This document shows positions 24,387-64,000 of a stretch of 64,000 nt of DNA, one piece after another (position 1 is the first letter of the stretch; every line of letters begins with the position of its first letter). Origin of the DNA: Lytechinus variegatus (Eukaryota; Echinodermata; Echinoidea; Temnopleuroida; Toxopneustidae). A program made the position numbers and the translations under genes. The notes below the pieces were generated by a model. That model worked only from the letters and a program-made list of their open reading frames with translations, was not told where the DNA came from and made no database searches. The stretch covers positions 8,956,501-9,020,500 of the forward strand of contig NC_054750.1 of NCBI RefSeq assembly GCF_018143015.1, in the 5' to 3' direction.

Positions 24387-24862
24387 AGGCGTCACGCGCG
24401 TAAAACATTCCCCATAGACTTGTGTGTTAAAATGGCACTATTGAAAATTCATAAAAAAAAATAAACGTAAAATTAGAGGGTCGAATGTTTACTACCATTG
24501 GATAGGATATATATCTGACATTCCATATCTGACCAGAGGAGGGTATCGTAGCCAGTTCATCTTAAAAATAAATCGCCATTTATGAAGATAATTATGGTGG
24601 GATCAAATTTATGAACTGAAACAGTGATTTTAGCCCTAATTCTTCCGCCAGTCAAAAATAGTTCCAAAGTCATTTTATATCTTCCCAATTTTTGGCAAAG
24701 GAAGTTCAGTATAGTTACCATTTCTAGAATCAGTGTTAGATTTTCAATTGTATTCGTACACTTTAGTCAATCAGCAATATCAAATTGAAAAAAAAAATCG
24801 AATGGGTTGGGTCGAACAAATTTTTCATAGCCGCGTCCTGTTATAATTAGGCTCGTGGAACC
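24387..24862 (+). mobile_element. Solitary TIR element related to the satellite unit
   Basis: This 476-bp block is clearly homologous to the first ~465 bp of the 1.47-kb satellite unit at 49,589 onward. Shared blocks include 'cattccccatagact', 'gaatgtttactacca', 'ccatatctgaccaga', 'agccctaat.cttccgcca', 'agaatcagtgttaga' and 'atgggttgg.tcga'. The degenerate ends 'aggcgtcacgcgc' and 'ggctcgtggaaccc' correspond to the AGGTTTCAC / GTGAAACCT inverted ends of the array copies. The rest of the satellite unit is not present here. Confidence 0.85.
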
Positions 24863-32600: not shown

Positions 32601-35600
32601 ACTTTAAAAGAGAAATAGGAAGGTAGTCATCATTCATATTATGACAAAATGTCCTCAGAATGTCCTGGTCCTATGTCAAAATTCAAAGTAATAATGAAAA
32701 GTAACAACTCTTTCTTGAGTGCGATCCATACCCACCTCACAATTTTCCTATAAAAATGCTTGAAATACAGAGCTTGAATTGACCCCTTTTCAGAAAGGGA
32801 TATCACATATCTTAAGCTCGCGCTTCGCGCTCGCTTTATTGATCTATGATTTAAAAAAGCTGTATTTAGAATGCCCAGATTCTAGGTCTTAATCTGTAAC
32901 ACACTCGAGCATGTTAATTAGGAAATACCGCTTATTCTCTATTTAAATCATTATCAAGTTTCAGATCAGAATAAAAAAAAAAATTCGCGCTTAGCGTAAA
33001 TGTATATACCTATCCTGTTCACGAGCAGTCCTTAACCGATCCCTTTTTGATCAGATCAAAACATATATCTAAAATTTCTGCTCCCACTTCCCACTTCCAG
33101 AAATTATTTAGTAGCAAACAAATCTTGTTCAGCATGGTATATTTCCAATTCGTCTAATGCCAATTTGTCCAATTTCGAACTCATCTACTATTATTTGGTC
33201 TACCATCAGTTCGTCTACTAACCACATGGTCTACTTTCATTTAGTCTTGTGCCATTTCGTATAATAACTTTTTGGTCCAATAGCCATTTAGTCATTATAC
33301 CATTGGTCTAACTGGACTAAAATGTTGAATATGCAAAGTGAATGAAAATGAAATGGATATTAGACCAACCGGTTATTAGACGAAATTGTCATAGAGGAAA
33401 TGGAAATTAGACGAAACGATATGATTCAACCAAATGGTTAATGGACCAAATTATTGTTAGACGAAATGTTGATGGACGGAATGGCATTAGACTAAATGAA
33501 AGTAGACCATGTGGTGAGTGGACCAATTGGCAATTTACCTACACAAACATTGCCCAGAATGTTCAAATTTTTAGGACAAAATACATAAAATTTCAAAAAA
33601 TTAGCTCGCGCTATGCGCTCGCACTATTTGAATAAGGCTTATATATGTGCATGTTGATCTATAATAATAAAGCTAAGAAGTGACTATTGGGACTAATCCT
33701 TCATTGAAACAAATAAAAATCAACTTGGAGTAGCCGATTCGAAGAAAATATGGCCTTAAATAATTCTGCCCCCCTCCCCTATTGGCGAAGGCTTGATCCG
33801 CCCCTGACGACGCCCCCATATGTCAATGTGGTAGCTATTTTAAGGTAACAGGGCGATCAGCAGCCGGTCACAGCCAATGTTTCCACTGGCGTTACAATAA
33901 TCATGACAATGGCAAATTTTCAATAGTCGTAAATGTTTATGAAATGGGTATCTAAAATAAGATTTAAACGTCATTAGCTCTGAAAATTTTGCCGTACAAC
34001 GCAGTTACTGTAGGAAAGAAGTATTTTGCTTTCGCTCCTCAATGCTCTCTTTATACTTGTCATTTTAAGACAGATTACCTTAGCGAAACAATCTATGGAC
34101 AAGTCTTTACTTTTGCAATCAATGTAAGAAGAAAGTAAAAAAAATGATAAGCTTTAAAAGAAAGACAGATAACATGTAAAAGACTATGGCTGCAAAGAAA
34201 TAAAGCTAGTTTTATTTACTAATTAGATCCTCTTGTACATGTACTACTTATTAGATTCTTTTAAGTTTTCCTCTTAGGGGTTCCTCACTTCATAACATGG
34301 AGTTCATAAGATCGTGACATAAATTTGATAAATTCTTCCTGCGTGAGGCAAGTAGATGGTCAGAAAATGTTGACAGAACCTCAATTCAGCAGAAAAGTAT
34401 AAATTCCGTACATAAATAAACCTTCTCTTTGCGACCACCCCTCCCCAACACCCACACACATCTCTCTTTCTCTCTCCTCTAGTTTCCAGATAAGAAAGCA
34501 AACATTTAGTGTGACATGACTCTGTAATGAAAAAGTTACTTTTCAAACCAGAAATGAAAATTCAATAGTCTTGTCTTGTCTTTTTAAAATCCATTTGCAC
34601 TCATCATTTTTCTTGAAACAGTCTGGACCTCTAGGAAGAACAGAGCCATTATATGAATTGCTCTGAAGAGAGTGATCCATCCGTATATTTTTATGTGCAT
34701 GTTTATATATTTATATTCCATGTCATATCTTGTGCAATGTGTTTTATTGTGATTTTTATAAGGTGAATAAAACCAAACCAAAGCAAGTCTTACCAAGTAG
34801 GTCATTCTGTGGCATCCACGTCATCGGTTTGAACTTGAATCGGTTGATATCTTCGGAGAAATTGCGACTAGTCTTCCAGAGGACCTTTTGAGGTAGTCGT
34901 GAGAATGCCGTTATAAACTCTTTAATAAGCTCCTCCTTCATGTAGGTTGCGTAAGAACCCATGGTGAAGATGATAATACCATCTTCACCAGAGCTTTGGA
35001 CAAACTCCTCAAGGTTCTAGAAAATGTGGAAGGAAGTAATAAAGTAATATGTCATCATTGAATGAAAACGTATTATAATATTTACTACCTTGGTACCATA
35101 TCAGACAGATTAAAGAATAGATTTGTGGATAAGTGTATATTAAGGTAAGATCGACAAACAGTATGTGTCAGGTTTCAGTATTAGGATTGTATGCTCAAGT
35201 TTATGAAGTCAAGCAGAATTAATCTAGAGGACAATGAAAATTACAGTACTATAAACACCTTTATCGAAAGACTAGACAGTCGAAAGTCGAAAGACTAGAC
35301 AGTTGAAGAATACAGCAAATTTTCATACTTGTTCAAGCGGCTTGGCAGGTTTGGTTGTGACGCCACCGACCGGAATTACATTCGGTGCGATGGGAAAGGG
35401 AAACTCGACGGCAAAATCCATGTTGACGAGAAGTAATTCCGCCTTGTTGAAAATATCAATGGGAGATAAATGTGGAGATATATTTCGTAAAGCCATGTAA
35501 TCTTGAGTGCTCTTCATCCTCATGGTGAGAAAAGATGGAAATACTTTTACCCGTACAAAATTGCGAAGACGCTGCCAAAACGTCATCCGTAGCGGGAAAC

Positions 35601-36189
35601 TACTCGAGTATGACGGTCGTATAGCATTGTTCACAGGAGAACCTAAAGCATCAGCAAGGTGTTCTTCAAGATGAGTTGGAAAGAAGAAGATGAAGGGCTT
35701 CTTGAGTATAACTGGTAGGAGATTCGGGCATCCAAAGACGGGATCAATGATAAGAATGTCTACGCTGGCTTCGGTTAGGCTATTAATGAAATTATCATCT
35801 TGCAGCATATCGTCACAGTCATTTAACCAATATTCATGCAGCGCCTCTTTATTCTTTCTAAACTCTCCGAGAAAATCACCAGAGACAGCGGCTCGGGCTA
35901 CAAAGTCTATCTTTTCCTTGAGTCTCCCCTCTGAAGGGGTGCGCTTTGTTCTGACAAAGTTGAAGAGTTTTGAGTATCTGTCGTCGTTGGGTACGGATGT
36001 TACTTCACCGCTGATGATGGCGGTGGCGTTGTGGCCACGCCCAACCAACTCCTCGCCAATAGCAGTTATTGAACTGAAGTGACTGCCTACTCCAGGCCCG
36101 CCATAGAAAGCTATATTCGCCGAATGCACTTTGTCGAATATGAACATCGATGAGATCAGAATGTACAACATTTCTGCCCCAAGATTCAT
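29328..36189 (-). CDS. UDP-glycosyltransferase, UGT family (gene A, intact, 4 coding exons)
   Basis: Exons join as 36189-35329, 35016-34794, 30533-30314 and 29622-29328, all with GT donors and AG acceptors and consistent phases (0, 1, 2). The total is 1,599 nt, or 532 aa, the usual UGT length. By family knowledge the enzyme transfers a sugar from a UDP-sugar to small lipophilic acceptors in the ER lumen. Visible features are a signal peptide (residues 1 to about 23), the catalytic pair His37 (GVGSHF) and Asp149 (IIDPVFGC), FTMGSY, WMPQNDLLGH, the donor-site motif QGGNNGFYE (372-380) with DQ at 396-397, a C-terminal membrane span and a cytosolic tail ending KKDD (ER retrieval). The usual donor-site His (THGG) is Gln372. 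The ATG at 36,189 was chosen because a signal peptide follows and the exon then matches gene B exactly (861 nt). An in-frame ATG 62 codons upstream is less likely. Donor sugar and acceptor are unknown. Confidence 0.93.
29971..30207. mobile_element. C-rich mini-element in intron 3 of UGT gene A
   Basis: It runs from 'actggtggatccagggggca' to 'cctggatccgctcctgg', with three C runs and a G run between. It contains 'aaattaaaattagtaatgta', shared with the copy at 41,179-41,316 in the same intron of gene B and in the same orientation. Confidence 0.68.
30314..30533 (-). CDS. UGT gene A, exon 3 (UDP-sugar binding)
   Basis: 220 bp, the same length as the corresponding exon of vertebrate UGTs. Acceptor TTTCAG|GT, donor AG|GTAACT. 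It encodes HNKTKLIIFQGGNNGFYEVV, HGVPCVVIPLLEDQYDIA and LDYHTLNAEKIEEAVRTVL. Confidence 0.93.
30655..31260. repeat. Tandem array of ~110-bp units with GCGAGCGCGAAGCGCGAGCT core (array 1)
   Basis: The core starts at 30,704, 30,811, 30,934, 31,039 and 31,151 (spacing 105-123 bp), always plus-oriented and followed by 'gaaatttt'. The spacer has 'gggacattttaaggac' and 'atatctcacc.atcaaat'. The core can fold as GCGC-GAA-GCGC. It lies in intron 2 of gene A. Confidence 0.88.
31490..31620 (-). mobile_element. C-rich mini-element fragment
   Basis: On the minus strand it starts 'cagtggcgtaactacgagg' and runs through 'ggaggggg' and 'cacgtgcccccccc' to a pyrimidine/purine-rich tail. It is a common invertebrate repeat start and is truncated. 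Confidence 0.55.
31700..31790. repeat. Degenerate (ATA/ATG)n microsatellite
   Basis: About 90 bp of AAT, AAC and ATG triplets, within intron 2 of gene A. Confidence 0.8.
31990..33110. repeat. Reverse-oriented array of the same ~110-bp hairpin repeat (array 2)
   Basis: Inverse cores (AGCTCGCGCTTCGCGCTCGC and variants) lie at 32,017, 32,206, 32,315, 32,418 (degenerate), 32,528 (degenerate), 32,816 and about 32,985. An isolated one lies at 33,602. Spacing is again near 110 bp or multiples. Units are more diverged than in array 1. It lies in intron 2 of gene A. Confidence 0.8.
33150..33540. mobile_element. Fold-back element built of ~20-nt repeats
   Basis: The left arm is a run of variants of 'atttcgtctaataacca' / 'atttggtctactttc', one about every 20 nt. 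The right arm is the same in inverse ('tagacgaaatg', 'tagaccaaatgg'). The turn is near 33,310-33,345. 'ccacatggtctactttcatt' occurs in the left arm and perfectly inverted in the right. It is non-coding. Confidence 0.75.
34794..35016 (-). CDS. UGT gene A, exon 2
   Basis: 223 bp, acceptor TTTTCTAG|AAC, donor CTTG|GTAAGA. It encodes NLEEFVQSSGEDGIIIFTMG, SYATYMKEELIKEFITAFSR and FKPMTWMPQNDLL, the link between the two Rossmann-like domains and the start of the nucleotide-binding domain. Confidence 0.93.
35329..36189 (-). CDS. UGT gene A, exon 1 (N-terminal acceptor-binding domain)
   Basis: 861 bp in phase 0, donor CAA|GTATGA. It holds the signal peptide, His37, Asp149, RMTFWQRLRNFV and the end DFAVEFPFPIAPNVIPVGG, the segment that leads into the sugar-donor domain. 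Confidence 0.93.
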
Positions 36190-36719
36190 TTTGTTATCTT
36201 CTGTAATCAACGAACGGTTGGTTTCCTTGATTGTCCGGCTCCATATAATCACTGGGAAATTCACAAGAAAAAAAAATCTGAATACGTCAATAAACACAGA
36301 AGAATATATGCTCGATGGATATAGAGCGTATGAAAAACGTATATGCAAAAAGTACACAACGGATACGTTTTCCAACGGATGGCAAGACGCTTTTCCGTTT
36401 TACATCGTCTCTTCATCCGTAAATGCAGTGGGACCGAGCCTTATACTAGGAACATTCTGCATATACGCACTTTTTGATAAGTGCTCAGCTTTTGGAATGA
36501 ACATAATTGATGGACACGACCTCCTTCATGCCCTTGATATAAAGCAGTTTCATGACTGAATTAAGGGGGTATAGCCTGGACAGTAGGTCAGATAATGAAA
36601 CGTTTATGAAAAAAAAACACAGACATGGAACAAAAGTTTGGTTTCCACGGTTTCCTATACAAATGCCTTAAAATAAAAAGAAAATGAAAAGGAAAAAACA
36701 ACACTGAGCGCTCAGATAC

Positions 36720-41035: not shown

Positions 41036-41178
41036 AGGCCTTCATAACTCACCAACAGTTGATCCAATCAATAAGCGCATAATGACTAGCTTATAGGCTT
41101 CCAAAAACTTAAGTTAAGCGCTATATAAGTATATATTGGTGTATCAGAAGAGTGAATAGCTTTACAACTGACCATGAT

Positions 41179-41316
41179 CTGGCGGATCCAGGAGGGGGCA
41201 CAACCGGCCCGTGCCCCCTTTAAAGGCACAATTAAAATTTGTAATGTAAAAATTCTAAATGCTGTTAAAACAGAAGTGTGCCCCCCCCCCTCCTTTTTTA
41301 GCTGGATACGCCCCTG
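41179..41316. mobile_element. C-rich mini-element in intron 3 of UGT gene B
   Basis: It runs from 'ctggcggatccaggaggggg' to 'gctggatacgcccctg', roughly inverted ends, with 'aattaaaatttgtaatgtaa' and 'gtgtgccccccccccc' inside. It is related to 29,971-30,207 and 24,167-24,325. Confidence 0.7.
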
Positions 41317-41383
41317 TGTAAACCAATAATAGAAAAATGGCACTTTTTCTATTATGTCGTTAGATATATCATCGACAACGTAC

Positions 41384-41603
41384 CTGTTGTTTCCTAATAC
41401 CGTCCTTACAGCCTCCACGATTATGTCAGCATTGAGGGTGTGGTAGTCGAGTTCGATTCCCATTCCATGGTGGACGGTTCGTGAAGCAACATCGAATTGG
41501 TCCATGAGTAATGGGATGACCACGGATGGCACACCGTGGTCAACGACTTCGTAAAAACCATTGTGACCTCCTTGGTAGATGATCAGTTTAGTCTTGTTGT
41601 GTG
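41384..41603 (-). CDS. UGT gene B, exon 3 (UDP-sugar binding)
   Basis: 220 bp, acceptor TTATCAG|CA, donor AACAG|GTACGT. It encodes HNKTKLIIYQGGHNGFYEVV, HGVPSVVIPLLMDQFDVAS and LDYHTLNADIIVEAVRTVLG. The codon split across the junction gives Ala where gene A has Gly (LLAH against LLGH). Confidence 0.9.
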
Positions 41604-42265
41604 CTGATAAAATTTGAAGAGATAATTTCAAATGCAGTATATCCCAACCATGTTTATAGTTTTGTACACCCTCCCCCTCATTTTCATCAGTCCTTGCCAT
41701 GGCAACGGGGCATAGTATACGTATAGGTAGGGGGTGATATACAGTATGCAATGAAAGGGAAGACAAATGACCAAATATTGTCCTGATTTCCAGCGATGGC
41801 ACCGCTACGACCCCCCCCCCCCCCACTTGTTTGAATGTTGCAGATGGTCATTTTAAACATTTCAATATTGTCCCCATATTACAATTAATCATTGTATAAA
41901 AATGTGTGTTTTACTATATATATCAATACATGCAATATAAAAATTGCATATTGCCTTATACTAAGCATACCATATACATGTATCATGGGAAAATATAACT
42001 TACACCACATTATGTCAAGGTCATGAGGAGATGATGTGAAATATGTAAAATAATTTGTGTAAACAAATGGAGGGTCAATCAGCCATTTTGAGGCATGTTT
42101 GCCAATTTGAGGATCCCCATATGTATACCACAAGACTTTTTAAACGTCAATAACTTGCGTATTTCACAACCAATTTTGATGAAACTTGCTTAAAGTTGTT
42201 CCCCTTGTTTTTCTCTTTTCCAATAAGACCGCTTCTCTTCATGGGTTTTGGTTTCCCTAACTCAC

Positions 42266-45792: not shown

Positions 45793-46653
45793 TACATCTA
45801 GCTTTTTCGCTGGTCTTGTCGTGATGCCGCCAACTGGAATGACATTCGGCGCGATAGGGAAAGGGAACTCCACTGCAAAATCCATGTTGACAAGAAACAG
45901 TTCCGCTCTACCAAATACTTCACTTTCTGAACAGGATGAAGGCGGTATATTTCGAGAAGAACAGTACTGCTGAACGCCTCTAAATGTTAAACCAATAAAT
46001 TAAGGTTGGATGAAATTACGAAATCGTTGCCAAAATGTCATGCGACGCGGGAAACCGCTTCCAAAATAAGGATGAAGGGCGGTGTCGATAGGGGATCCAA
46101 ATGACCTGCCTAAGAAATCCTCAAGGTGTGTAGGGATCATGAATATCACAGGTTCCTTCAATATTACCGGTAAAAGGTTGGTACAACCAAAGTATGGGTC
46201 AACGATCAAGAGGTCAAGATTAGCATCCACAAGACTTTTGATGAAGTCCGCGTCCATCAGTAGGGCATCGCAATCTTTGTTCATTTCGTCTTGCATAGTT
46301 GCAAGGTGCTTGTTAAGCTCCCCGAGGAAATTGCCCGACACAGCAGCTTGCGCGACAACGTCCACTCTCTCCCTCAATTCTTCCTCCGAGAATCGCCTGT
46401 TTGTGATTGCAAAATGGAAGAGCTCGGAGTACCTGTCATCTTGGCTTGTAGCAATGGCGTCGCCGCCAAGGATGGCTGTTACATTGTGACCTCGACGAAC
46501 CAATTCTTCACCCAATGAAGCCGCCACAAAGAAATGACTGCCCAGTCCCGGGCCACCGGATATTGCTATATTGGACGCTTCAGATATAGCAGTAAGCACT
46601 CCACTAAGAATAGAAAACTTCCAAATCAGTGCCATTACCATAAATTGAGACAT
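45793..46653 (-). pseudogene. UGT gene B, exon 1 with premature TAA
   Basis: 861 nt from ATG to the donor GTA|GTAAGT, the same length as in gene A. The signal peptide, His40 and Asp152 are present. The stop at 46,002-46,000 is the only break. After it the same frame reads FIGLTFRGVQQYCSSRNI and then NMDFAVEFPFPIAPNVIPVG. Confidence 0.9.
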
Positions 46654-47204
46654 TAGATCAGGTGAACAATCAAAAATAATTATTCAGTGATAGTCTGATC
46701 CCGGTCGGTTAAATCACAATTATCAGCATAACTTTAAGCAACCGGAAGTAAGGATATGACTATTTCAGTCTGCATACAAACTGCTGTCACTGGCCCCTAC
46801 CTTCACGTTTATCCTTTAAAATTGAAGGTCTTATTCCAACAAAACTTTGGAAATTAATATTTGAAGATAATGACGAACGTACCTCAGGCTTCCGATTTTC
46901 GAGTGTTAGAACGTTTTGTGTCTTGTTAGGTACATTACACACGTCAAGTTGCCTTATTCAAAACTAACCTCTTGAAATAAGTAGAACTACAGTTCAGGTC
47001 GGAAACCCCAGGTCATGTTTGTTATCATTCACGATAAATATTGAAGGTTCAAAGTCCATACATGTGGAACCTTGTCCATTTGATATTGAATTTGTCATCT
47101 GCATCAATCATATATCATGTATATGCTACGTAATTAATTTTATTTCGTCTCTGTTATTTCCAATATGGTCATCCATACCTTTTTTTTGTCCTGGGTACCC
47201 TGTA
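46654..47204. other. Upstream flank of UGT gene B
   Basis: It should hold the 5' UTR and promoter of gene B. I see no definite TATA box, splice site or repeat. It ends at a TIR transposon. Confidence 0.35.
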
Positions 47205-48440: not shown

Positions 48441-49588
48441 TGGCTACTTTCAGTGGCATCAATTTATCTTAGACATCTTTTATCCAAATTAGACTTAATT
48501 TGTCACTTAGGCCTACCTGTATACATGATAGGTACTGACATTATACGCGACCGGTTCATCCTGATACCGAAAACTTAAGAGAAATCTGAAAATTTTTGAT
48601 AGGTGACTATTTAATATTGCTCTTTTTTATTCAACAAAAGAAGAATTTTTTTACACGCCCAAATCCAAACAATTTCAAACACAAATAGTTATGAAAATTA
48701 ATTGAACAGTTTTATTAGCATTACTTGTGCTATTAATTAATATTCATGTATTATTTCAATATAAGTTCATGATCTTTGCCAGCTGATCTTTGGATCGGAG
48801 TTGGATACCGAAGCAAGCTAGAAACAGGTAAATTATATAGAACCAAAATAAATCAAGTACCGTCGAGAAATAATTACAAATAATAAATTCTACTTATATA
48901 CATTACTGTTAACTACTAATTCAGATAATTTTTTACAGTGTAATAGTGGTGGTAGTAGTAGCAGTAGTAGTAGTATACCATTGCTATCATGCATTAATTC
49001 TTAACCCTTGTTAAATTTTGTATAAGCGCATGTCGGTCCCAAAATTGCTCAAAAAACGTGATTACGTGTACAAAGTCAATGCAAATTGTGTTTTTCAACC
49101 AAAAATCATAAATGTATGATATAACGTTTTAGTTTTGTTGGTTTAGATGGATAATATGTTATATCGAAAAAACAATAAAAAACAAAGGTTTGAAAAAACA
49201 GAGAAATACATAAAAATAAAAAAACAATAAGATACATATGAAATTTTGTATTTTTCGGCATTTTTTTAATAGAATTTTCTTGGAAATGTAAAAACTTATA
49301 TGTTCACCAAAGTTAGAATTCTACTAGCTGTATAATATAGAAAATGAATTAAAGGCAAAAACACACACACAAATTTGGGGAAAATTTCATACGCTTGTAA
49401 TCAATTGCAAATTTACATTATCATCATCATACACACGCATCATCAATTATATCTATCATTTTACCTCTCTAAAATATAGGATCTCATGGGGGGTCAACAC
49501 CGCTCGGACAAAAACATATACGGTACCCTCCGAATGCATTCCATACAACTTTTGAGTTATATGGAAAGCCATTACCGGAATTAGTGTG
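48441..49588. other. Intergenic DNA left of the satellite
   Basis: AT-rich, with a (GTA)n run near 48,950-48,976. No exon, RNA gene or terminal repeat was recognised. The sequence directly before the array ('ccattaccggaattagtgtg') is not found between the later units, so the junction is sharp. Confidence 0.4.
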
Positions 49589-50053
49589 AGGTTTCACAGG
49601 CTTAATTCATTCCCCATAGACTCATGTGTTAAATTGGCACTTTAAAAAATTCATGAAAAATAAGGATGAAATTCGGGGGTTGAATGTTTACTACCAGTGG
49701 ATAGGATTTATATCTGGCAATCCATATCTGACCAGAAAAGGGTCCCTCGACCGGCTCATTTTAAAAATAAATTGGCGTGTTTGAAGACACCTTCGGGGGG
49801 AGCAGATTCATCACCTCAAACAGCAAAATAGCCCTAATCCTTCCGCCAGTGAAAATATAGTCCAAAATTGGTGATGTTTCTTCCCAATTTGGGAAAAGGA
49901 AGTTCAGTAATTACCAAAAATAGAATCAGTGTTAGATGGACAATCATATGCATACACTTTGTCTATCAGCCATATCAAAATAAAAAAAATAGCAATGGGT
50001 TGGCTCGAATGAATATTTATGGCCTGCCACTAGTAATTAGGCCCGTGAGACCT
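49589..50053 (+). mobile_element. TIR element forming the first part of satellite unit 1
   Basis: The left end AGGTTTCACAGGCTTAATT and the right end 'ttaggcccgtgagacct' (GTGAAACCT in other units) are inverted repeats of about 18 bp. A solitary diverged relative lies at 24,387-24,862. It has no transposase, so it is MITE-like. The same element recurs at the start of each of the ten units. In units 5 and 7 the end reads AGTTTCAC. Confidence 0.82.
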
Positions 50054-53000
50054 GTATTGTATGGCACATGAAGGTTTCTTTTAATTTACCTTCCTGGCTT
50101 TTCTTTAACATCTGTACACTCACTTTATCACAAAGAAATGCATGAAATATACAGATGTGTTATGTAATGACCATTTCTAATGTTACTCCTAATGTCCAGT
50201 GCCCTATGGATTTACACACATCCTACATGCCTATATGTAGCTCAACAATGGATGCAATGTAGGGCCCAAATCCTATAATACAAATTATAGATATGAATAG
50301 TGTGCATATCTGGATTCAAGATCTGCCCACAATATCAATACCAGATTCACATGAGTTAAATTAGATAACAATAAAAAGAAATGAGAATCAACATACAAGC
50401 ATACTATACATTCACATCTTCCTATGACAAGGGCCCAAGCCAGGTGTAAGAGAGAGACAGGGAGAGAGGGGGTTAGATGGCTTGTATTCTAAATGGATGG
50501 GGGCTAGTCTGGCTAGAAGTCAGTAAAAGTTGAACAAGATAGCAGTATAGAACTCATTCTCAGCCCCCCCCCCCCCAGCTAACTATATGCTTTTCTCTAC
50601 CCCCCCCCCCCCTCCTCCCTCTTGAATCCACCACTCTTCAGTCAAATTCTAAAGTTTTCTCTTCTCATTCCCTCCCCCATGAACCAATTTCACAAGTGCA
50701 ATTGATGCAAGGCCTATCTAATGTGTACTATATCTTGTGATGGGTGCTATACACGATTTACAGCAGCGCTCGTCGGTATACGAAAACACACGACAACATG
50801 CAAGCAACCCAGTGTCAGTGACAAACACACGCACAGCCTAGCTAGCCTAGGTACACAAACACAGAGTTACTAATAACAACTTGTTACCTGTTATACCCCC
50901 TATGTAGCCTTGTATATAGCCATGAAGTTCAGTTTTTGGACCTCTTGATGATTGGAACATGTATACTAGTGAAATGCAATCTGCTACTGAAGAGTTGGGC
51001 AGGTATTTCATCCACTAGGGAATCCCCCATGTAATAGGCTATGGTCAGGGTTATAGGTTTCACAGGCTTAATTCATTCCCCATAGACTCATGTGTTAAAT
51101 TGGCACTTTAAAAAATTCATAAAAAATAAGGATGAAATTCGGGGGTGAATGTTTACTACCAGTGGATAGGATTTATATCTGGCAATCCATATCTGACCAG
51201 AAAAGGGTCCCTCGACCGGCTCATTTTAAAAAAAATTGGCGTGTTTGAAGACACCTTCGGGGGGAGCAGATTCATCACCTCAAACAGCAAAATAGCCCTA
51301 ATCCTTCCGCCGGTGAAAATATAGTCCAAAATTGGTGATATTTCTTCCCAATTTGGGAAAAGGAAGTTCAGTAATTACCAAAAATAGAATCAGTGTTAGA
51401 TGGACAATCATATGCATACACTTTGTCTATCAGCCATATCAAAATTAAAAAAATAGCAATGGGTTGGCTCGAATGAATATTTATGGCCTGCCACTAGTGA
51501 TTAGGCCCGTGAAACCTGTATTGTATGGCACATGAAGGTTTCTTTTTAATTTACCTTCCTGGCTTTTCTTTAACATCTGTACACTCACTTTATCACAAAG
51601 AAATGCATGAAATATACAGATGTGTTATGTAATGACCATTTCTAATGTTACTCCTAATGTCCAGTGCCCTATGGATTTACACACATCCTACATGCCTATA
51701 TGTAGCTCAACAATGGATGCAATGTAGGGCCCAAATCCTATAATACAAATTATAGATATGAATAGTGTGCATATCTGGATTCAAGATCTGCCCACAATAT
51801 CAATACCAGATTCACATGAGTTAAATTAGATAACAATAAAAAGAAATGAGAATCAACATACAATCATACTATACATTCACATCTTCCTATGACAAGGGCC
51901 CAAGCCAGGGTGTAAGAGAGAGAGACAGGGAGAGAGGGGGTTAGATGGCTTGTATTCTAAATGGATGGGGGCTAGTCTGGCTAGAAGTCAGTAAAAGTTG
52001 AACAAGATAGCAGTATAGAACTCATTCTCAGCCCCCCCCCCCAGCTAACTATATGCTTTTCTCTACCCCCCCCCCCCCTCCTCCCTCTTGAATCCACCAC
52101 TCTTCAGTCAAATTCTAAAGTTTTCTCTTCTCATTCCTTCCCCGTGAACCAATTTCACAAGTGCAATTGATGCAAGGCCTATCTAATGTGTACTATATCT
52201 TGTGATGGGTGCTATACACGATTTACAGCAGCGCTCGTCGGTATACGAAAACACACGACAACATGCAAGCAACCCAGTGTCAGTGACAAACACACGCACA
52301 GCCTAGCTAGCCTAGGTACACAAACACAGAGGTACTAATAACAACTTGTTACCTGTTATACCCCCTATGTAGCCTTGTATATAGCCATGAAGTTCAGTTT
52401 TTGGACCTCTTGATGATTGGAACATGTATACTAGTGAAATGCAATCTGCTACTGAAGAGTTGGGCAGGTATTTCATCCACTAGGGAATCCCCCATGTAAT
52501 AGGCTATGGTCAGGTTATAGGTTTCACAGGCTTAATTCATTCCCCATAGACTCATGTGTTAAATTGGCACTTTAAAAAATTCATAAAAAATAAGGATGAA
52601 ATTCGGGGGTTGAATGTTTACTACCAGTGGATAGGATTTATATCTGGCAATCCATATCTGACCAGAAAAGGGTCCCTCGACCGGCTCATTTTAAAAATAA
52701 ATTGGCGTGTTTGAAGACACCTTCGGGGGGAGCAGATTCATCACCTCAAACAGCAAAATAGCCCTAATCCTTCCGCCGGTGAAAATATAGTCCAAAATTG
52801 GTGATATTTCTTCCCAATTTGGGAAAAGGAAGTTCAGTAATTACCAAAAATAGAATCAGTGTTAGATGGACAATCATATGCATACACTTTGTCTATCAGC
52901 CATATCAAAATAAAAAAAATAGCAATGGGTTGGCTCGAATGAATATTTATGGCCTGCCACTAGTGATTAGGCCCGTGAAACCTGTATTGTATGGCACATG

Positions 53001-56000
53001 AAGGTTTCTTTTTAATTTACCTTCCTGGCTTTTCTTTAACATCTGTACACTCACTTTATCACAAAGAAATGCATGAAATATACAGATGTGTTATGTAATG
53101 ACCATTTCTAATGTTACTCCTAATGTCCAGTGCCCTATGGATTTACACACATCCTACATGCCTATATGTAGCTCAACAATGGATGCAATGTAGGGCCCAA
53201 ATCCTATAATACAAATTATAGATATGAATAGTGTGCATATCTGGATTCAAGATCTGCCCACAATATCAATACCAGATTCACATGAGTTAAATTAGATAAC
53301 AATAAAAAGAAATGAGAATCAACATACAATCATACTATACATTCACATCTTCCTATGACAAGGGCCCAAGCCAGGGTGTAAGAGAGAGAGACAGGGAGAG
53401 AGGGGGTTAGATGGCTTGTATTCTAAATGGATGGGGGCTAGTCTGGCTAGAAGTCAGTAAAAGTTGAACAAGATAGCAGTATAGAACTCATTCTCAGCCC
53501 CCCCCCAGCTAACTATATGCTTTTCTCTACTACCCCCCCCCCCCTCCTCCCTCTTGAATCCACCACTCTTCAGTCAAATTCTAAAGTTTTCTCTTCTCAT
53601 TCCCTTCCCCGTGAACCAATTTCACAAGTGCAATTGATGCAAGGCCTATCTAATGTGTACTATATCTTGTGATGGGTGCTATACACGATTTACAGCAGCG
53701 CTCGTCGGTATACGAAAACACACGACAACATGCAAGCAACCCAGTGTCAGTGACAAACACACGCACAGCCTAGCTAGCCTAGGTACACAAACACAGAGGT
53801 ACTAATAACAACTTGTTACCTGTTATACCCCCTATGTAGCCTTGTATATAGCCATGAAGTTCAGTTTTTGGACCTCTTGATGATTGGAACATGTATACTA
53901 GTGAAATGCAATCTGCTACTGAAGAGTTGGGCAGGTATTTCATCCACTAGGGAATCCCCCATGTAATAGGCTATGGTCAGGGTTATAGGTTTCACAGGCT
54001 TAATTCATTCCCCATAGACTCATGTGTTAAATTGGCACTTTAAAAAATTCATAAAAAATAAGGATGAAATTCGGGGGTTGAATGTTTACTACCAGTGGAT
54101 AGGATTTATATCTGGCAATCCATATCTGACCAGAAAAGGGTCCCTCGACCGGCTCATTTTAAAAATAAATTGGCGTGTTTGAAGACACCTTCGGGGGGAG
54201 CAGATTCATCACCTCAAACAGCAAAATAGCCCTAATCCTTCCGCCGGTGAAAATATAGTCCAAAATTGGTGATATTTCTTCCCAATTTGGGAAAAGGAAG
54301 TTCAGTAATTACCAAAAATAGAATCAGTGTTAGATGGACAATCATATGCATACACTTTGTCTATCAGCCATATCAAAATTAAAAAAATAGCAATGGGTTG
54401 GCTCGAATGAATATTTATGGCCTGCCACTAGTGATTAGGCCCGTGAAACCTGTATTGTATGGCACATGAAGGTTTCTTTTTAATTTACCTTCCTGGCTTT
54501 TCTTTAACATCTGTACACTCACTTTATCACAAAGAAATGCATGAAATATACAGATGTGTTATGTAATGACCATTTCTAATGTTACTCCTAATGTCCAGTG
54601 CCCTATGGATTTACACACATCCTACATGCCTATATGTAGCTCAACAATGGATGCAATGTAGGGCCCAAATCCTATAATACAAATTATAGATATGAATAGT
54701 GTGCATATCTGGATTCAAGATCTGCCCACAATATCAATACCAGATTCACATGAGTTAAATTAGATAACAATAAAAAGAAATGAGAATCAACATACAATCA
54801 TACTATACATTCACATCTTCCTATGACAAGGGCCCAAGCCAGGGTGTAAGAGAGAGAGACAGGGAGAGAGGGGGTTAGATGGCTTGTATTCTAAATGGAT
54901 GGGGGCTAGTCTGGCTAGAAGTCAGTAAAAGTTGAACAAGATAGCAGTATAGAACTCATTCTCAGCCCCCCCCCCCAGCTAACTATATGCTTTTCTCTAC
55001 CCCCCCCCCCCCCTCCTCCCTCTTGAATCCACCACTCTTCAGTCAAATTCTAAAGTTTTCTCTTCTCATTCCCTTCCCCGTGAACCAATTTCACAAGTGC
55101 AATTGATGCAAGGCCTATCTAATGTGTACTATATCTTGTGATGGGTGCTATACACGATTTACAGCAGCGCTCGTCGGTATACGAAAACACACGACAACAT
55201 GCAAGCAACCCAGTGTCAGTGACAAACACACGCACAGCCTAGCTAGCCTAGGTACACAAACACAGAGGTACTAATAACAACTTGTTACCTGTTATACCCC
55301 CTATGTAGCCTTGTATATAGCCATGAAGTTCAGTTTTTGGACCTCTTGATGATTGGAACATGTATACTAGTGAAATGCAATCTGCTACTGAAGAGTTGGG
55401 CAGGTATTTCATCCACTAGGGAATCCCCCATGTAATAGGCTATGGTCAGGGTTATAGTTTCACAGGCTTAATTCATTCCCCATAGACTCATGTGTTAAAT
55501 TGGCACTTTAAAAAATTCATGAAAAATAAGGATGAAATTCGGGGTTGAATGTTTACTACCAGTGGATAGGATTTATATCTGGCAATCCATATCTGACCAG
55601 AAAAGGGTCCCTCGACCGGCTCATTTTAAAAATAAATTGGCGTGTTTGAAGACACCTTCGGGGGAGCAGATTCATCACCTCAAACAGCAAAATAGCCCTA
55701 ATCCTTCCGCCGTGAAAATATAGTCCAAAATTGGTGATATTTCTTCCCAATTTGGGAAAAGGAAGTTCAGTAATTACCAAAAATAGAATCAGTGTTAGAT
55801 GGACAATCATATGCATACACTTTGTCTATCAGCCATATCAAAATAAAAAAAATAGCAATGGGTTGGCTCGAATGAATATTTATGGCCTGCCACTAGTGAT
55901 TAGGCCCGTGAAACCTGTATTGTATGGCACATGAAGGTTTCTTTTTAATTTACCTTCCTGGCTTTTCTTTAACATCTGTACACTCACTTTATCACAAAGA

Positions 56001-59000
56001 AATGCATGAAATGTACAGATGTGTTATGTAATGACCATTTCTAATGTTACTCCTAATGTCCAGTGCCCTATGGATTTACACACTTCCTACATGCCTATAT
56101 GTAGCTCAACAATGGATGCAATGTAGGGCCCAAATCCTATAATACAAATTATAGATATGAATAGTGTGCATATCTGGATTCAAGATCTGCCCACAATATC
56201 AATACCAGATTCACATGAGTTAAATTAGATAACAATAAAAAGAAATGAGAATCAACATACAATCATACTATACATTCACATCTTCCTATGACAAGGGCCC
56301 AAGCCAGGGTGTAAGAGAGAGAGACAGGGAGAGAGGGGTTGGATGGCTTGTATTCTAAATGGATGGGGGCTAGTCTGGCTAGAAGTCAGTAAAAGTTGAA
56401 CAAGATAGCAGTATAGAACTCATTCTCAGCCCCCCCCCCAGCTAACTATATGCTTTTCTCTACCCCCCCCCCCCCCTCCTCCCTCTTGAATCCACCACTC
56501 TTCAGTCAAATTCTAAAGTTTTCTCTTCTCATTCCCTTCCCCATGAACCAATTTCACAAGTGCAATTGATGCAAGGCCTATCTAATGTGTACTATATCTT
56601 GTGATGGGTGCTATACACGATTTACAGCAGCGCTCGTCGGTATACGAAAACACACGACAACATGCAAGCAACCCAGTGTCAGTGACAAACACACGCACAG
56701 CCTAGCTAGCCTAGGTACACAAACACAGAGGTACTAATAACAACTTGTTACCTGTTATACCCCCTATGTAGCCTTGTATATAGCCATGAAGTTCAGTTTT
56801 TGGACCTCTTGATGATTGGAACATGTATACTAGTGAAATGCAATCTGCTACTGAAGAGTTGGGCAGGTATTTCATCCACTAGGGAATCCCCCATGTAATA
56901 GGCTATGGTCAGGGTTATAGGTTTCACAGGCTTAATTCATTCCCCATAGACTCATGTGTTAAATTGGCACTTTAAAAAATTCATAAAAAATAAGGATGAA
57001 ATTCGGGGGTTGAATGTTTACTACCAGTGGATAGGATTTATATCTGGCAATCCATATCTGACCAGAAAAGGGTCCCTCGACCGGCTCATTTTAAAAATAA
57101 ATTGGCGTGTTTGAAGACACCTTCGGGGGAGCAGATTCATCACCTCAAACAGCAAAATAGCCCTAATCCTTCCGCCGGTGAAAATATAGTCCAAAATTGG
57201 TGATATTTCTTCCCAATTTGGGAAAAGGAAGTTCAGTAATTACCAAAAATAGAATCAGTGTTAGATGGACAATCATATGCATACACTTTGTCTATCAGCC
57301 ATATCAAAATAAAAAAAATAGCAATGGGTTGGCTCGAATGAATATTTATGGCCTGCCACTAGTGATTAGGCCCGTGAAACCTGTATTGTATGGCACATGA
57401 AGGTTTCTTTTTAATTTACCTTCCTGGCTTTTCTTTAACATCTGTACACTCACTTTATCACAAAGAAATGCATGAAATGTACAGATGTGTTATGTAATGA
57501 CCATTTCTAATGTTACTCCTAATGTCCAGTGCCCTATGGATTTACACACATCCTACATGCCTATATGTAGCTCAACAATGGATGCAATGTAGGGCCCAAA
57601 TCCTATAATACAAATTATAGATATGAATAGTGTGCATATCTGGATTCAAGATCTGCCCACAATATCAATACCAGATTCACATGAGTTAAATTAGATAACA
57701 ATAAAAAGAAATGAGAATCAACATACAAGCATACTATACATTCACATCTTCCTATGACAAGGGCCCAAGCCAGGGTGTAAGAGAGAGAGACAGGGAGAGA
57801 GGGGGTTAGATGGCTTGTATTCTAAATGGATGGGGGCTAGTCTGGCTAGAAGTCAGTAAAAGTTGAACAAGATAGCAGTATAGAACTCATTCTCAGCCCC
57901 CCCCCCCCCCAGCTAACTATATGCTTTTCTCTACCCCCCCCCCCCCTCCTCCCTCTTGAATCCACCACTCTTCAGTCAAATTCTAAAGTTTTCTCTTCTC
58001 ATTCCCTTCCCCATGAACCAATTTCACAAGTGCAATTGATGCAAGGCCTATCTAATGTGTACTATATCTTGTGATGGGTGCTATACACGATTTACAGCAG
58101 CGCTCGTCGGTATACGAAAACACACGACAACATGCAAGCAACCCAGTGTCAGTGACAAACACACGCACAGCCTAGCTAGCCTAGGTACACAAACACAGAG
58201 GTACTAATAACAACTTGTTACCTGTTATACCCCCTATGTAGCCTTGTATATAGCCATGAAGTTCAGTTTTTGGACCTCTTGATGATTGGAACATGTATAC
58301 TAGTGAAATGCAATCTGCTACTGAAGAGTTGGGCAGGTATTTCATCCACTAGGGAATCCCCCATGTAATAGGCTATGGTCAGGGTTATAGTTTCACAGGC
58401 TTAATTCATTCCCCATAGACTCATGTGTTAAATTGGCACTTTAAAAAATTCATGAAAAATAAGGATGAAATTCGGGGGTTGAATGTTTACTACCAGTGGA
58501 TAGGATTTATATCTGGCAATCCATATCTGACCAGAAAAGGGTCCCTCGACCGGCTCATTTTAAAAATAAATTGGCGTGTTTGAAGACACCTTCGGGGGGA
58601 GCAGATTCATCACCTCAAACAGCAAAATAGCCCTAATCCTTCCGCCGGTGAAAATATAGTCCAAAATTGGTGATATTTCTTCCCAATTTGGGAAAAGGAA
58701 GTTCAGTAATTACCAAAAATAGAATCAGTGTTAGATGGACAATCATATGCATACACTTTGTCTATCAGCCATATCAAAATAAAAAAAATAGCAATGGGTT
58801 GGCTCGAATGAATATTTATGGCCTGCCACTAGTGATTAGGCCCGTGAAACCTGTATTGTATGGCACATGAAGGTTTCTTTTTAATTTACCTTCCTGGCTT
58901 TTCTTTAACATCTGTACACTCACTTTATCACAAAGAAATGCATGAAATGTACAGATGTGTTATGTAATGACCATTTCTAATGTTACTCCTAATGTCCAGT

Positions 59001-62000
59001 GCCCTATGGATTTACACACATCCTACATGCCTATATGTAGCTCAACAATGGATGCAATGTAGGGCCCAAATCCTATAATACAAATTATAGATATGAATAG
59101 TGTGCATATCTGGATTCAAGATCTGCCCACAATATCAATACCAGATTCACATGAGTTAAATTAGATAACAATAAAAAGAAATGAGAATCAACATACAATC
59201 ATACTATACATTCACATCTTCCTATGACAAGGGCCCAAGCCAGGGTGTAAGAGAGAGAGACAGGGAGAGAGGGGTTGGATGGCTTGTATTCTAAATGGAT
59301 GGGGGCTAGTCTGGCTAGAAGTCAGTAAAAGTTGAACAAGATAGCAGTATAGAACTCATTCTCAGCCCCCCCCCCCAGCTAACTATATGCTTTTCTCTAC
59401 CCCCCCCCCCCTCCTCCCTCTTGAATCCACCACTCTTCAGTCAAATTCTAAAGTTTTCTCTTCTCATTCCCTTCCCCATGAACCAATTTCACAAGTGCAA
59501 TTGATGCAAGGCCTATCTAATGTGTACTATATCTTGTGATGGGTGCTATACACGATTTACAGCAGCGCTCGTCGGTATACGAAAACACACGACAACATGC
59601 AAGCAACCCAGTGTCAGTGACAAACACACGCACAGCCTAGCTAGCCTAGGTACACAAACACAGAGGTACTAATAACAACTTGTTACCTGTTATACCCCCT
59701 ATGTAGCCTTGTATATAGCCATGAAGTTCAGTTTTTGGACCTCTTGATGATTGGAACATGTATACTAGTGAAATGCAATCTGCTACTGAAGAGTTGGGCA
59801 GGTATTTCATCCACTAGGGAATCCCCCATGTAATAGGCTATGGTCAGGGTTATAGGTTTCACAGGCTTAATTCATTCCCCATAGACTCATGTGTTAAATT
59901 GGCACTTTAAAAAATTCATAAAAAATAAGGATGAAATTCGGGGTTGAATGTTTACTACCAGTGGATAGGATTTATATCTGGCAATCCATATCTGACCAGA
60001 AAAGGGTCCCTCGACCGGCTCATTTTAAAAATAAATTGGCGTGTTTGAAGACACCTTCGGGGGAGCAGATTCATCACCTCAAACAGCAAAATAGCCCTAA
60101 TCCTTCCGCCAGTGAAAATATAGTCCAAAATTGGTGATATTTCTTCCCAATTTGGGAAAAGGAAGTTCAGTAATTACCAAAAATAGAATCAGTGTTAGAT
60201 GGACAATCATATGCATACACTTTGTCTATCAGCCATATCAAAATTAAAAAAATAGCAATGGGTTGGCTCGAATGAATATTTATGGCCTGCCACTAGTGAT
60301 TAGGCCCGTGAAACCTGTATTGTATGGCACATGAAGGTTTCTTTTTAATTTACCTTCCTGGCTTTTCTTTAACATCTGTACACTCACTTTATCACAAAGA
60401 AATGCATGAAATATACAGATGTGTTATGTAATGACCATTTCTAATGTTACTCCTAATGTCCAGTGCCCTATGGATTTACACACATCCTACATGCCTATAT
60501 GTAGCTCAACAATGGATGCAATGTAGGGCCCAAATCCTATAATACAAATTATAGATATGAATAGTGTGCATATCTGGATTCAAGATCTGCCCACAATATC
60601 AATACCAGATTCACATGAGTTAAATTAGATAACAATAAAAAGAAATGAGAATCAACATACAATCATACTATACATTCACATCTTCCTATGACAAGGGCCC
60701 AAGCCAGGGTGTAAGAGAGAGAGACAGGGAGAGAGGGGGTTAGATGGCTTGTATTCTAAATGGATGGGGGCTAGTCTGGCTAGAAGTCAGTAAAAGTTGA
60801 ACAAGATAGCAGTATAGAACTCATTCTCAGCCCCCCCCCCCAGCTAACTATATGCTTTTCTCTACCCCCCCCCCCCCCCCCTCCCTCTTGAATCCACCAC
60901 TCTTCAGTCAAATTCTAAAGTTTTCTCTTCTCATTCCCTTCCCCGTGAACCAATTTCACAAGTGCAATTGATGCAAGGCCTATCTAATGTGTACTATATC
61001 TTGTGATGGGTGCTATACACGATTTACAGCAGCGCTCGTCGGTATACGAAAACACACGACAACATGCAAGCAACCCAGTGTCAGTGACAAACACACGCAC
61101 AGCCTAGCTAGCCTAGGTACACAAACACAGAGGTACTAATAACAACTTGTTACCTGTTATACCCCCTATGTAGCCTTGTATATAGCCATGAAGTTCAGTT
61201 TTTGGACCTCTTGATGATTGGAACATGTATACTAGTGAAATGCAATCTGCTACTGAAGAGTTGGGCAGGTATTTCATCCACTAGGGAATCCCCCATGTAA
61301 TAGGCTATGGTCAGGGTTATAGGTTTCACAGGCTTAATTCATTCCCCATAGACTCATGTGTTAAATTGGCACTTTAAAAAATTCATAAAAAATAAGGATG
61401 AAATTCGGGGGTTGAATGTTTACTACCAGTGGATAGGATTTATATCTGGCAATCCATATCTGACCAGAAAAGGGTCCCTCGACCGGCTCATTTTAAAAAT
61501 AAATTGGCGTGTTTGAAGACACCTTCGGGGGAGCAGATTCATCACCTCAAACAGCAAAATAGCCCTAATCCTTCCGCCGGTGAAAATATAGTCCAAAATT
61601 GGTGATATTTCTTCCCAATTTGGGAAAAGGAAGTTCAGTAATTACCAAAAATAGAATCAGTGTTAGATGGACAATCATATGCATACACTTTGTCTATCAG
61701 CCATATCAAAATAAAAAAAATAGCAATGGGTTGGCTCGAATGAATATTTATGGCCTGCCACTAGTGATTAGGCCCGTGAAACCTGTATTGTATGGCACAT
61801 GAAGGTTTCTTTTTAATTTACCTTCCTGGCTTTTCTTTAACATCTGTACACTCACTTTATCACAAAGAAATGCATGAAATGTACAGATGTGTTATGTAAT
61901 GACCATTTCTAATGTTACTCCTAATGTCCAGTGCCCTATGGATTTACACATATCCTACATGCCTATATGTAGCTCAACAATGGATGCAATGTAGGGCCCA

Positions 62001-64000
62001 AATCCTATAATACAAATTATAGATATGAATAGTGTGCATATCTGGATTCAAGATCTGCCCACAATATCAATACCAGATTCACATGAGTTAAATTAGATAA
62101 CAATAAAAAGAAATGAGAATCAACATACAAGCATACTATACATTCACATCTTCCTATGACAAGGGCCCAAGCCAGGGTGTAAGAGAGAGAGACAGGGAGA
62201 GAGGGGGTTAGATGGCTTGTATTCTAAATGGATGGGGGCTAGTCTGGCTAGAAGTCAGTAAAAGTTGAACAAGATAGCAGTATAGAACTCATTCTCAGCC
62301 CCCCCCCCAGCTAACTATATGCTTTTCTCTACCCCCCCCCCCCCCTCCTCCCTCTTGAATCCACCACTCTTCAGTCAAATTCTAAAGTTTTCTCTTCTCA
62401 TTCCCTTCCCCATGAACCAATTTCACAAGTGCAATTGATGCAAGGCCTATCTAATGTGTACTATATCTTGTGATGGGTGCTATACACGATTTACAGCAGC
62501 GCTCGTCGGTATACGAAAACACACGACAACATGCAAGCAACCCAGTGTCAGTGACAAACACACGCACAGCCTAGCTAGCCTAGGTACACAAACACAGAGG
62601 TACTAATAACAACTTGTTACCTGTTATACCCCCTATGTAGCCTTGTATATAGCCATGAAGTTCAGTTTTTGGACCTCTTGATGATTGGAACATGTATACT
62701 AGTGAAATGCAATCTGCTACTGAAGAGTTGGGCAGGTATTTCATCCACTAGGGAATCCCCCATGTAATAGGCTATGGTCAGGGTTATAGGTTTCACAGGC
62801 TTAATTCATTCCCCATAGACTCATGTGTTAAATTGGCACTTTAAAAAATTCATAAAAAATAAGGATGAAATTCGGGGTTGAATGTTTACTACCAGTGGAT
62901 AGGATTTATATCTGGCAATCCATATCTGACCAGAAAAGGGTCCCTCGACCGGCTCATTTTAAAAATAAATTGGCGTGTTTGAAGACACCTTCGGGGGGAG
63001 CAGATTCATCACCTCAAACAGCAAAATAGCCCTAATCCTTCCGCCGTGAAAATATAGTCCAAAATTGGTGATATTTCTTCCCAATTTGGGAAAAGGAAGT
63101 TCAGTAATTACCAAAAATAGAATCAGTGTTAGATGGACAATCATATGCATACACTTTGTCTATCAGCCATATCAAAATAAAAAAAATAGCAATGGGTTGG
63201 CTCGAATGAATATTTATGGCCTGCCACTAGTGATTAGGCCCGTGAAACCTGTATTGTATGGCACATGAAGGTTTCTTTTTAATTTACCTTCCTGGCTTTT
63301 CTTTAACATCTGTACACTCACTTTATCACAAAGAAATGCATGAAATATACAGATGTGTTATGTAATGACCATTTCTAATGTTACTCCTAATGTCCAGTGC
63401 CCTATGGATTTACACACATCCTACATGCCTATATGTAGCTCAACAATGGATGCAATGTAGGGCCCAAATCCTATAATACAAATTATAGATATGAATAGTG
63501 TGCATATCTGGATTCAAGATCTGCCCACAATATCAATACCAGATTCACATGAGTTAAATTAGATAACAATAAAAAGAAATGAGAATCAACATACAAGCAT
63601 ACTATACATTCACATCTTCCTATGACAAGGGCCCAAGCCAGGGTGTAAGAGAGAGAGACAGGGAGAGAGGGGTTGGATGGCTTGTATTCTAAATGGATGG
63701 GGGCTAGTCTGGCTAGAAGTCAGTAAAAGTTGAACAAGATAGCAGTATAGAACTCATTCTCAGCCCCCCCCCCCCCAGCTAACTATATGCTTTTCTCTAC
63801 CCCCCCCCCCCCTCCTCCCTCTTGAATCCACCACTCTTCAGTCAAATTCTAAAGTTTTCTCTTCTCATTCCCTTCCCCATGAACCAATTTCACAAGTGCA
63901 ATTGATGCAAGGCCTATCTAATGTGTACTATATCTTGTGATGGGTGCTATACACGATTTACAGCAGCGCTCGTCGGTATACGAAAACACACGACAACATG
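49589..64000 (+). repeat. Satellite-like tandem array, 1,466-bp unit, 9.8 copies
   Basis: Units start at 49589, 51055, 52519, 53987, 55456, 56919, 58389, 59854, 61321 and 62788 (spacings 1463-1470). The last is cut by the window end. Units are nearly identical by eye. Differences are mostly in the two C runs ('ctcag C(n) ctaac' and 'ctctac C(n) tcctcc') plus scattered single bases. Each unit consists of a ~465-bp TIR element (AGGTTTCAC...GTGAAACCT) and about 1,000 bp of other non-coding DNA that includes 'gagagagagacagggagaga' and 'cctagctagcctagg'. I found no rRNA, snRNA, tRNA or histone sequence. A recurring 67-codon frame is a by-product of unit identity. Confidence 0.95.

Follow-up and report, generated by a model that had tools for sequence, protein, structure and literature searches.

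A sea urchin satellite array that probably grew between the ends of a composite DNA transposon

The 64,000-nucleotide stretch of Lytechinus variegatus DNA analysed here (the window; contig NC_054750.1, below C11, positions 8956501-9020500) ends in a tandem array in which a 463-bp element with terminal inverted repeats (TIRs), E, alternates with a block of ~1,003 bp, R, that follows each E. A preliminary description of the window had reported a repeated ~465-bp element followed by ~1 kb of other DNA, and this holds: ten E copies start within the window, from 49,590 to 62,789, at a spacing of 1,464-1,469 bp; outside E, the ~1 kb of the later units matches that of the first at 98.5-99.2% identity. 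When loci from searches of the genome (869,567,369 bases in 33 contigs) were joined by coordinate, the full array measured 61,725 bp (C11:9006090-9067814), with 35 E and 36 R, of which 35 R are whole and one is split by an insertion. The window holds 10 of the 35 E and the remainder of the array lies to its right. The mean substitution difference among units is 0.35% for E and 0.43% for R, which places the array among head-to-tail satellites.

All features of the array lie on the plus strand. A left copy of GTGA (49586..49589) precedes E1 (49590..50052), the left terminal TIR element of 463 bp; the A at 49,589 is part of the flank, outside E. The left end of E is GGTTTCAC at 49,590, and its right end is GTGAGACC in this first copy and otherwise GTGAAACC. 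R1 (50053..51055) starts with TGTA and ends with TATA, and no open reading frame (ORF) above 67 amino acids (aa), and so none of at least 70 aa, overlaps the first unit. There follow E2 (51056..51516), R2 (51517..52519), E3 (52520..52982), R3 (52983..53987), E4 (53988..54450), R4 (54451..55456), E5 (55457..55915; first base changed or missing), R5 (55916..56919), E6 (56920..57381), R6 (57382..58389), E7 (58390..58851; first base again changed or missing), R7 (58852..59854), E8 (59855..60315), R8 (60316..61321), E9 (61322..61783), R9 (61784..62788), E10 (62789..63249) and R10 (63250..64000), which is cut by the window end while the array goes on to C11:9067814. No Rfam match at the gathering score was found anywhere in the window.

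At the left edge of the array TTAGTGTGA gives way to GGTTTCAC, and at the right edge GTGAAACC gives way to GTGACTGTG, so that both edges are E termini. GTGA stands directly outside the array on both sides, its right copy being outside the window at C11:9067815-9067818; inside the array the E flanks are TATA and TGTA. Because both edges are E termini with the same GTGA outside, the satellite appears to lie between the ends of one composite transposon. The coincidence of array boundary and transposon end, which had been reported for the first unit, is therefore true of both array ends, and it comes with a target duplication. Two R-R joints of this array lack E and read GGGT-TGTA-TTGT, with a single 4-bp copy.

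The inverted ends of E match at 15 of 20 positions in the subfamily of the array and at 17 of 20 in a sister subfamily. E and the composites have GGTYTCACRGGCCTAATT-type ends and 4-bp duplications, and with both TIRs and a target duplication of fixed length E fits a TIR DNA transposon of the miniature inverted-repeat transposable element (MITE) kind. Three subfamilies are told apart by position 4 of the TIR, at which the two ends usually agree (GGTT/AACC, GGTC/GACC and GGTG/CACC). Sola, Chapaev and Ginger are named superfamilies with 4-bp target duplications. A Helitron, which has neither TIR nor target duplication, was considered and rejected, both features being present.

Across the genome, allowing up to 3 mismatches, E left ends gave 724 matches, R starts 247 and, as a separate pattern, an E end joined to an R start 203; at least 25 R starts, counted from exact matches only, come after another R. 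These counts indicate that R is nearly always part of a composite and that E also occurs independently. At the 26 R-bearing loci that we read, no R end was without E except where it was truncated. The preliminary description had expected the ~1-kb part to be limited to arrays, which is not the case, since R is also found in dispersed single-unit copies, E-R-E. It had added that R always attached to E, as one larger transposon, would speak against it; this is largely what the 247 and 203 matches show for R, but E is also found alone. The layouts read were E-R-E, (E-R)n-E, E-R-R-R-R-E, E-E and mixed forms such as E-R-R-E-R-R-E-R-E-R-E-R-E; outside the C11 array, composites carry 1, 2, 3, 4, 5 or 7 R copies, or consist of E-E alone.

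Both outer E ends were readable at 20 of the 26 R-bearing loci (named here by contig and position in Mb). The other six, with an end missing or truncated, were not scored: C9 0.35 and C9 7.7, which are multi-R arrays truncated at one end, C1 3.3, C5 30.35, C8 13.3 and C9 30.6. At C3 41.0, C9 5.1 and C8 33.3 one or two altered first bases of an E were assumed. We left out the E multimers C1 53.0 (R as left neighbour) and C16 23.0 (unclear ends) and the solitary E at C16 4.87 (no right end found); in E multimers and solitary copies the flanks and tips alone were read. Two composites, L070 and L071 (C9:30.6 and 32.4 Mb), have 24 bases of left flank in common, and are therefore probably one insertion copied by a larger duplication.

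The outer 4-bp flanks were identical in 14 of the 20 composites, in 14 different words (GTGA, TCGT, AACA, TCCT, TAAG, CACA, AGGA, TCTG, TGCA, TGCG, TGAC, ACCT, TAGA and CTAA), and alike at three of four letters in four more (C4 18.8, C1 6.5, C2 10.3 and C8 33.3). All seven multi-R arrays with both ends readable, with 36, 7, 5, 5, 4, 3 and 2 R copies, have identical flanks. So do seven of nine E-only multimers and 8 of 14 solitary E tested, the latter in agreement with the earlier view of E as a mobile TIR element. In 20,000 shuffles no more than 6 flank matches were obtained in any of the three sets, and when right flanks were compared with the left flanks of other loci, matches numbered 2/380 for composites, 0/72 for E multimers and 5/182 for solitary E. 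Since most composites sit in identical 4-bp duplications that differ by locus, insertion via the outermost E ends is indicated, and we infer from the identical flanks that composites move by these ends. Two element copies that bracket cargo within identical outer flanks, as in a composite transposon, were in this way found at 14 of 20 loci.

The joints inside these structures carry other words. Head-to-tail E-E pairs, of which 11 out of 19 loci were looked at, have TGTA or TATA as spacer and in one case TAGA. In the seven E-E multimers whose outer flanks are identical, the inner spacer is unlike the outer duplication (at C11 31.3, ACCG outside and TGTA inside); such pairs have therefore moved as pairs. 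An E-only satellite at C1 ~33753808-33759872 has a 467-bp period and 12 exact joints with the spacer TATA. R-R joints gave 25 exact matches at nine loci, with TGTA kept. Five of these loci were read, four being E-bounded and C9 7.7 truncated on the left, and four on C17 were not (2.09, 17.53, 19.59-19.60 and 20.58 Mb; the joints at 19.59 Mb span 12 kb). E-less joints mostly keep a single 4-bp copy. The sequence to the left of the R-R TGTA differs among loci, and at C11, C4 40.8 and C3 25.8 it equals the one at R-E joints within that array. A free R-only satellite was looked for and rejected, the C11-type R-R junction (up to 2 mismatches) being present at 3 places only, all within E-bounded arrays.

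In a tree built from 81 copies of R at 24 loci, each of the nine multi-copy loci forms a single clade, with support of 0.37-1.0 (C11, 0.44). The grouping of R copies by array suggests that arrays were probably multiplied or homogenised at each insertion, the tree being weak at some loci. The R copies in front of the two E-less joints of C11 have two variants in common that are absent from all other copies examined, which points to one event that was later copied within the array.

The diverged relative of E in the window, a solitary copy on the plus strand at 24388..24862 with outer 4 bp GATA/CATA, had been noticed before and is real: it is 76% identical to the array E over 467 positions (E-value 1.8e-86) and belongs to an older subfamily with many members. 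Among the best 40 of 2,258 candidates, full-length matches are mostly 86-89% like this copy, and one 97%. Within the same 40, copies lie ~1,470 bp apart, as in E-R, at C3 60.50, C2 41.82 and C5 6.32 Mb, and 467-469 bp apart, as in E-E, at C3 12.86 and C2 41.82 Mb. Of the array at C3 60.50 Mb we read unit one and the terminal 71 bases, and deduced the middle from the spacing. The E there is 79% like that of the C11 array, and the block after it is homologous to R and collinear with it (68% over 338 positions, E-value 1.6e-21; 75% over 103, E-value 2e-13). TATA follows E, TATA ends the block, and the outer flanks are ATAT/ATAT. The same layout in the older subfamily implies that the composite predates the split of the subfamilies. 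Within R, E has a clean TATA duplication at this locus and TGTA on one side in the younger lineage, which we infer to be a mutation.

Our best explanation, which we consider quite probable, is that a non-autonomous composite DNA transposon inserts by its outer ends, that amplification or homogenisation follows at each site, and that the array is the interior of such a transposon after expansion. Two direct copies of the 463-bp E bracket the non-coding R of ~1 kb, and the flanks show that insertion used the outermost E ends and that one target duplication encloses the whole array. Arrays would have multiplied or homogenised locus by locus after insertion, a step suggested by the R tree. Growth could have come from direct E and R copies exchanging unequally or converting one another, and circles may have provided the seed. 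The R-TGTA-R, E-TGTA-E and E-TATA-E joints may be scars left when inner E ends were cut and the break was mended across the 4-bp duplication, and such cuts might add or remove modules. The transposase would come from an autonomous relative. The preliminary suggestion that the transposon end took part in amplification is thus partly borne out, by the coincidence of ends, and is better put as a satellite grown inside a composite transposon.

Several observations weigh against this explanation. The loci are the best search matches together with others hand-picked from pattern lists, a non-random sample. The composites C9 5.1 and C1 17.1 have no outer duplication, 6 of 14 solitary E lack matching flanks, and the outer flanks of the E-only array at C1 33.75 Mb (TATA/TTCA) do not match. 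TGTA stands on the right side of E at 5 of the 14 sites without identical outer flanks (L044, L032, L060, L105/L106 at C1:55.5 and L089/L090 at C1:59.2). TIR position 4 differs between the ends of E at C11 E1, C4 18.8 (both E), C4 16.4 (both E) and C5 30.35, and at C1 49.9 both flanks are retained in the R-R joints. No transposase turned up, no search having been aimed at a transposase or at transposase-bearing relatives. Distance between C11 units is unrelated to their spacing (Mantel p 0.88), so that stepwise duplication of neighbours is not visible there. Finally, the left and right E of a locus (E_L and E_R) are more alike than under random pairing within subfamilies (12 loci, 0/20,000 shuffles; C9 5.1, where one E passed the filter, and C11 31.3, which has no R, were excluded). 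This likeness is expected from retrotransposition of a long terminal repeat (LTR) element; we take it here to need local homogenisation, or donors from homogenised arrays.

A different starting point, which we regard as possible though doubtful, is that R was a ~1-kb tandem satellite into which E inserted once, at TATA/TGTA, and with which it spread by unequal exchange. Pieces bounded by two E would later have been moved by transposase, and the E-less R-R junctions would be ancestral remnants, not excision scars. In-array E is indeed flanked by TATA/TGTA (TATA/TATA in the one unit read of the old subfamily), so that one R must at some time have adjoined another, whether in a tandem or in a circle, and R-R junctions are found at nine loci. 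However, the 26 R-bearing loci read hold no untruncated R end without E, and the locus-specific sequence left of R-R, the same as at R-E junctions of the same array at the three loci named above, points to local events, a pattern that homogenisation could also yield. This account is compatible with the growth of a satellite inside an inserted composite. E may first have arrived in tandem R or in a circle.

Rather unlikely, in our estimate, is the more far-reaching proposal that E and R together form a self-renewing satellite transposon, in which one transposase would alternate between outer and inner E ends, moving arrays and adding or removing modules via circles. That E-R has lasted in two old lineages suggests, in this proposal, a contribution of R to the cycle. 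If true, the satellite would owe its making to the chemistry of transposition, and ordinary unequal crossing over would not be the source.

Arrays might instead have been homogeneous at birth, rolling-circle multimers of E-R circles having been inserted whole between two E ends. The lack of a relation between distance and spacing in C11, the single clade per locus and the synchrony of E_L and E_R would all follow, and in maize, discussed below, both circles and composite insertions by rolling circle are on record (PMC4270019, PMC3744419). C11 E1, on the other hand, has three variants in its right half that are known from other loci and absent from the other 34 E of the array, which was therefore either not uniform at birth or altered later. 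We judge such preformed concatemers to be unlikely.

We gave serious weight to an LTR reading because of the E_L/E_R synchrony. In it, E would be a long terminal repeat and R the interior of a tiny non-autonomous retroelement (TRIM/LARD-like), arrays would arise by unequal LTR-LTR exchange and solitary E would be solo LTRs. Direct terminal repeats, 4-bp duplications and solo copies agree with this, and its strongest point is that the two E of a locus are alike, as terminal repeats are at insertion, a result that local homogenisation predicts likewise. Yet E ends in GG...CC and not TG...CA, its inverted repeats match at 15-17 of 20 positions, and in three subfamilies the two ends usually share position 4, apart from the exceptions given above. 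By eye, there is no primer site at the R start and no purine tract at the R end. E-E multimers with 4-bp spacers (including the E-only array with 12 junctions) and E-R-R-R-R-E are unexpected as LTR products. On termini, TIRs and the E-E and R-R products the reading was set aside as very improbable. An assembly artefact or collapsed repeat, which the high identity of the units might suggest, is hardly credible given private and shared variants that distinguish units, a ~9.4-kb insertion in one of them, boundaries that both enter other flanks, and a layout that recurs at many loci.

The preferred reading, of a satellite expanded inside a composite, has parallels elsewhere. Bacterial compound and pseudo-compound transposons of the IS26 type have the layout (IS-cargo)n-IS and are amplified between direct IS copies. 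Layout and amplification are alike here; the genome is instead a large eukaryotic one, the cargo is non-coding and the unit holds no transposase. Among the papers compared, none was found that joins a satellite with a macrotransposon or composite transposition; subscription journals and the sea urchin Tsp elements were outside the comparison.

That MITEs and other transposons can give rise to satellites is well documented (PMC12628747, PMC9659126, PMC4079207). In the MITE-borne satellites (Xstir and miDNA4 of Xenopus, and the pearl-related bivalve satellite; PMC12628747, PMC9659126), as here, a non-autonomous element carries or yields tandem repeats, and dispersed and tandem forms coexist. As described there, the repeat lies inside one element, whereas whole TIR elements are part of our repeated unit, and in arrays with as many as 36 R the outer E ends still stand between identical 4-bp flanks. 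The Tetris foldback element and TIR-220 satellite of Drosophila virilis (PMC4079207) likewise show a DNA transposon providing the building blocks of a young satellite, but with repeats within long TIRs and duplications of 8-10 bp, in contrast to whole elements, a separate block and 4 bp here. Dimers of transposable elements formed by double insertion (McGurk and Barbash, cited in PMC12628747) resemble the E-E tandems in that spacer length equals target duplication. Unlike in these, the TGTA spacer of seven E-E multimers differs from the outer duplication, and the dimer itself must therefore have moved as a unit.

In maize, reversed-ends transposition of Ac circularises the segment between two elements (PMC3744419) and can give re-replication and composite insertions (PMC4270019). 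As in our model, the termini of two nearby Ac/Ds elements cooperate in this alternative transposition, the DNA between them is circularised, and junctions carry target duplications. Most maize cases in these sources are alleles newly formed at a single gene, the others being a few older duplications and a bz1 allele; the composite family described here, by contrast, occupies many sites and at least two old lineages. Repair of excision sites via microhomology of the target duplication has been described with reference to mPing (PMC9659126).

It has long been asked how satellites originate and how they come to occupy new places on chromosomes. In this one genome the likely intermediates coexist, namely solitary E, the pair, the single-unit composite, short arrays and the 62-kb array, and most of those tested are bounded by their own target duplication. 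An array with a defined start, end and insertion site makes the birth of a satellite traceable locus by locus, and its growth separable from transposition.

The split R of the C11 array carries an insertion of ~9,361 bp (C11:9033161-9042521, outside the window) with inverted ends CCCTTATAAAAA and TTTTTATAAGGG and a repeated AG; no ORF of at least 150 aa was found in 8,501 bases (L043) that cover most of it. In a solitary E, L048 (C17:16398303), the right flank together with the E end nearly equals the opening 26 bp of R read in reverse complement, a stretch that has GGTTTC at position 21; this is possibly a trace of the origin of R. Head-to-head E pairs with a 4-bp spacer were seen at L063 (C5:30350360), C3:64085137 and C2:53182642. 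Elsewhere in the window, Pfam matches at 35326-36399, 41089-41847, 46003-46683 and 1613-2185 comprise minus-strand UDP-glucuronosyltransferase-like stretches and a reverse transcriptase fragment.

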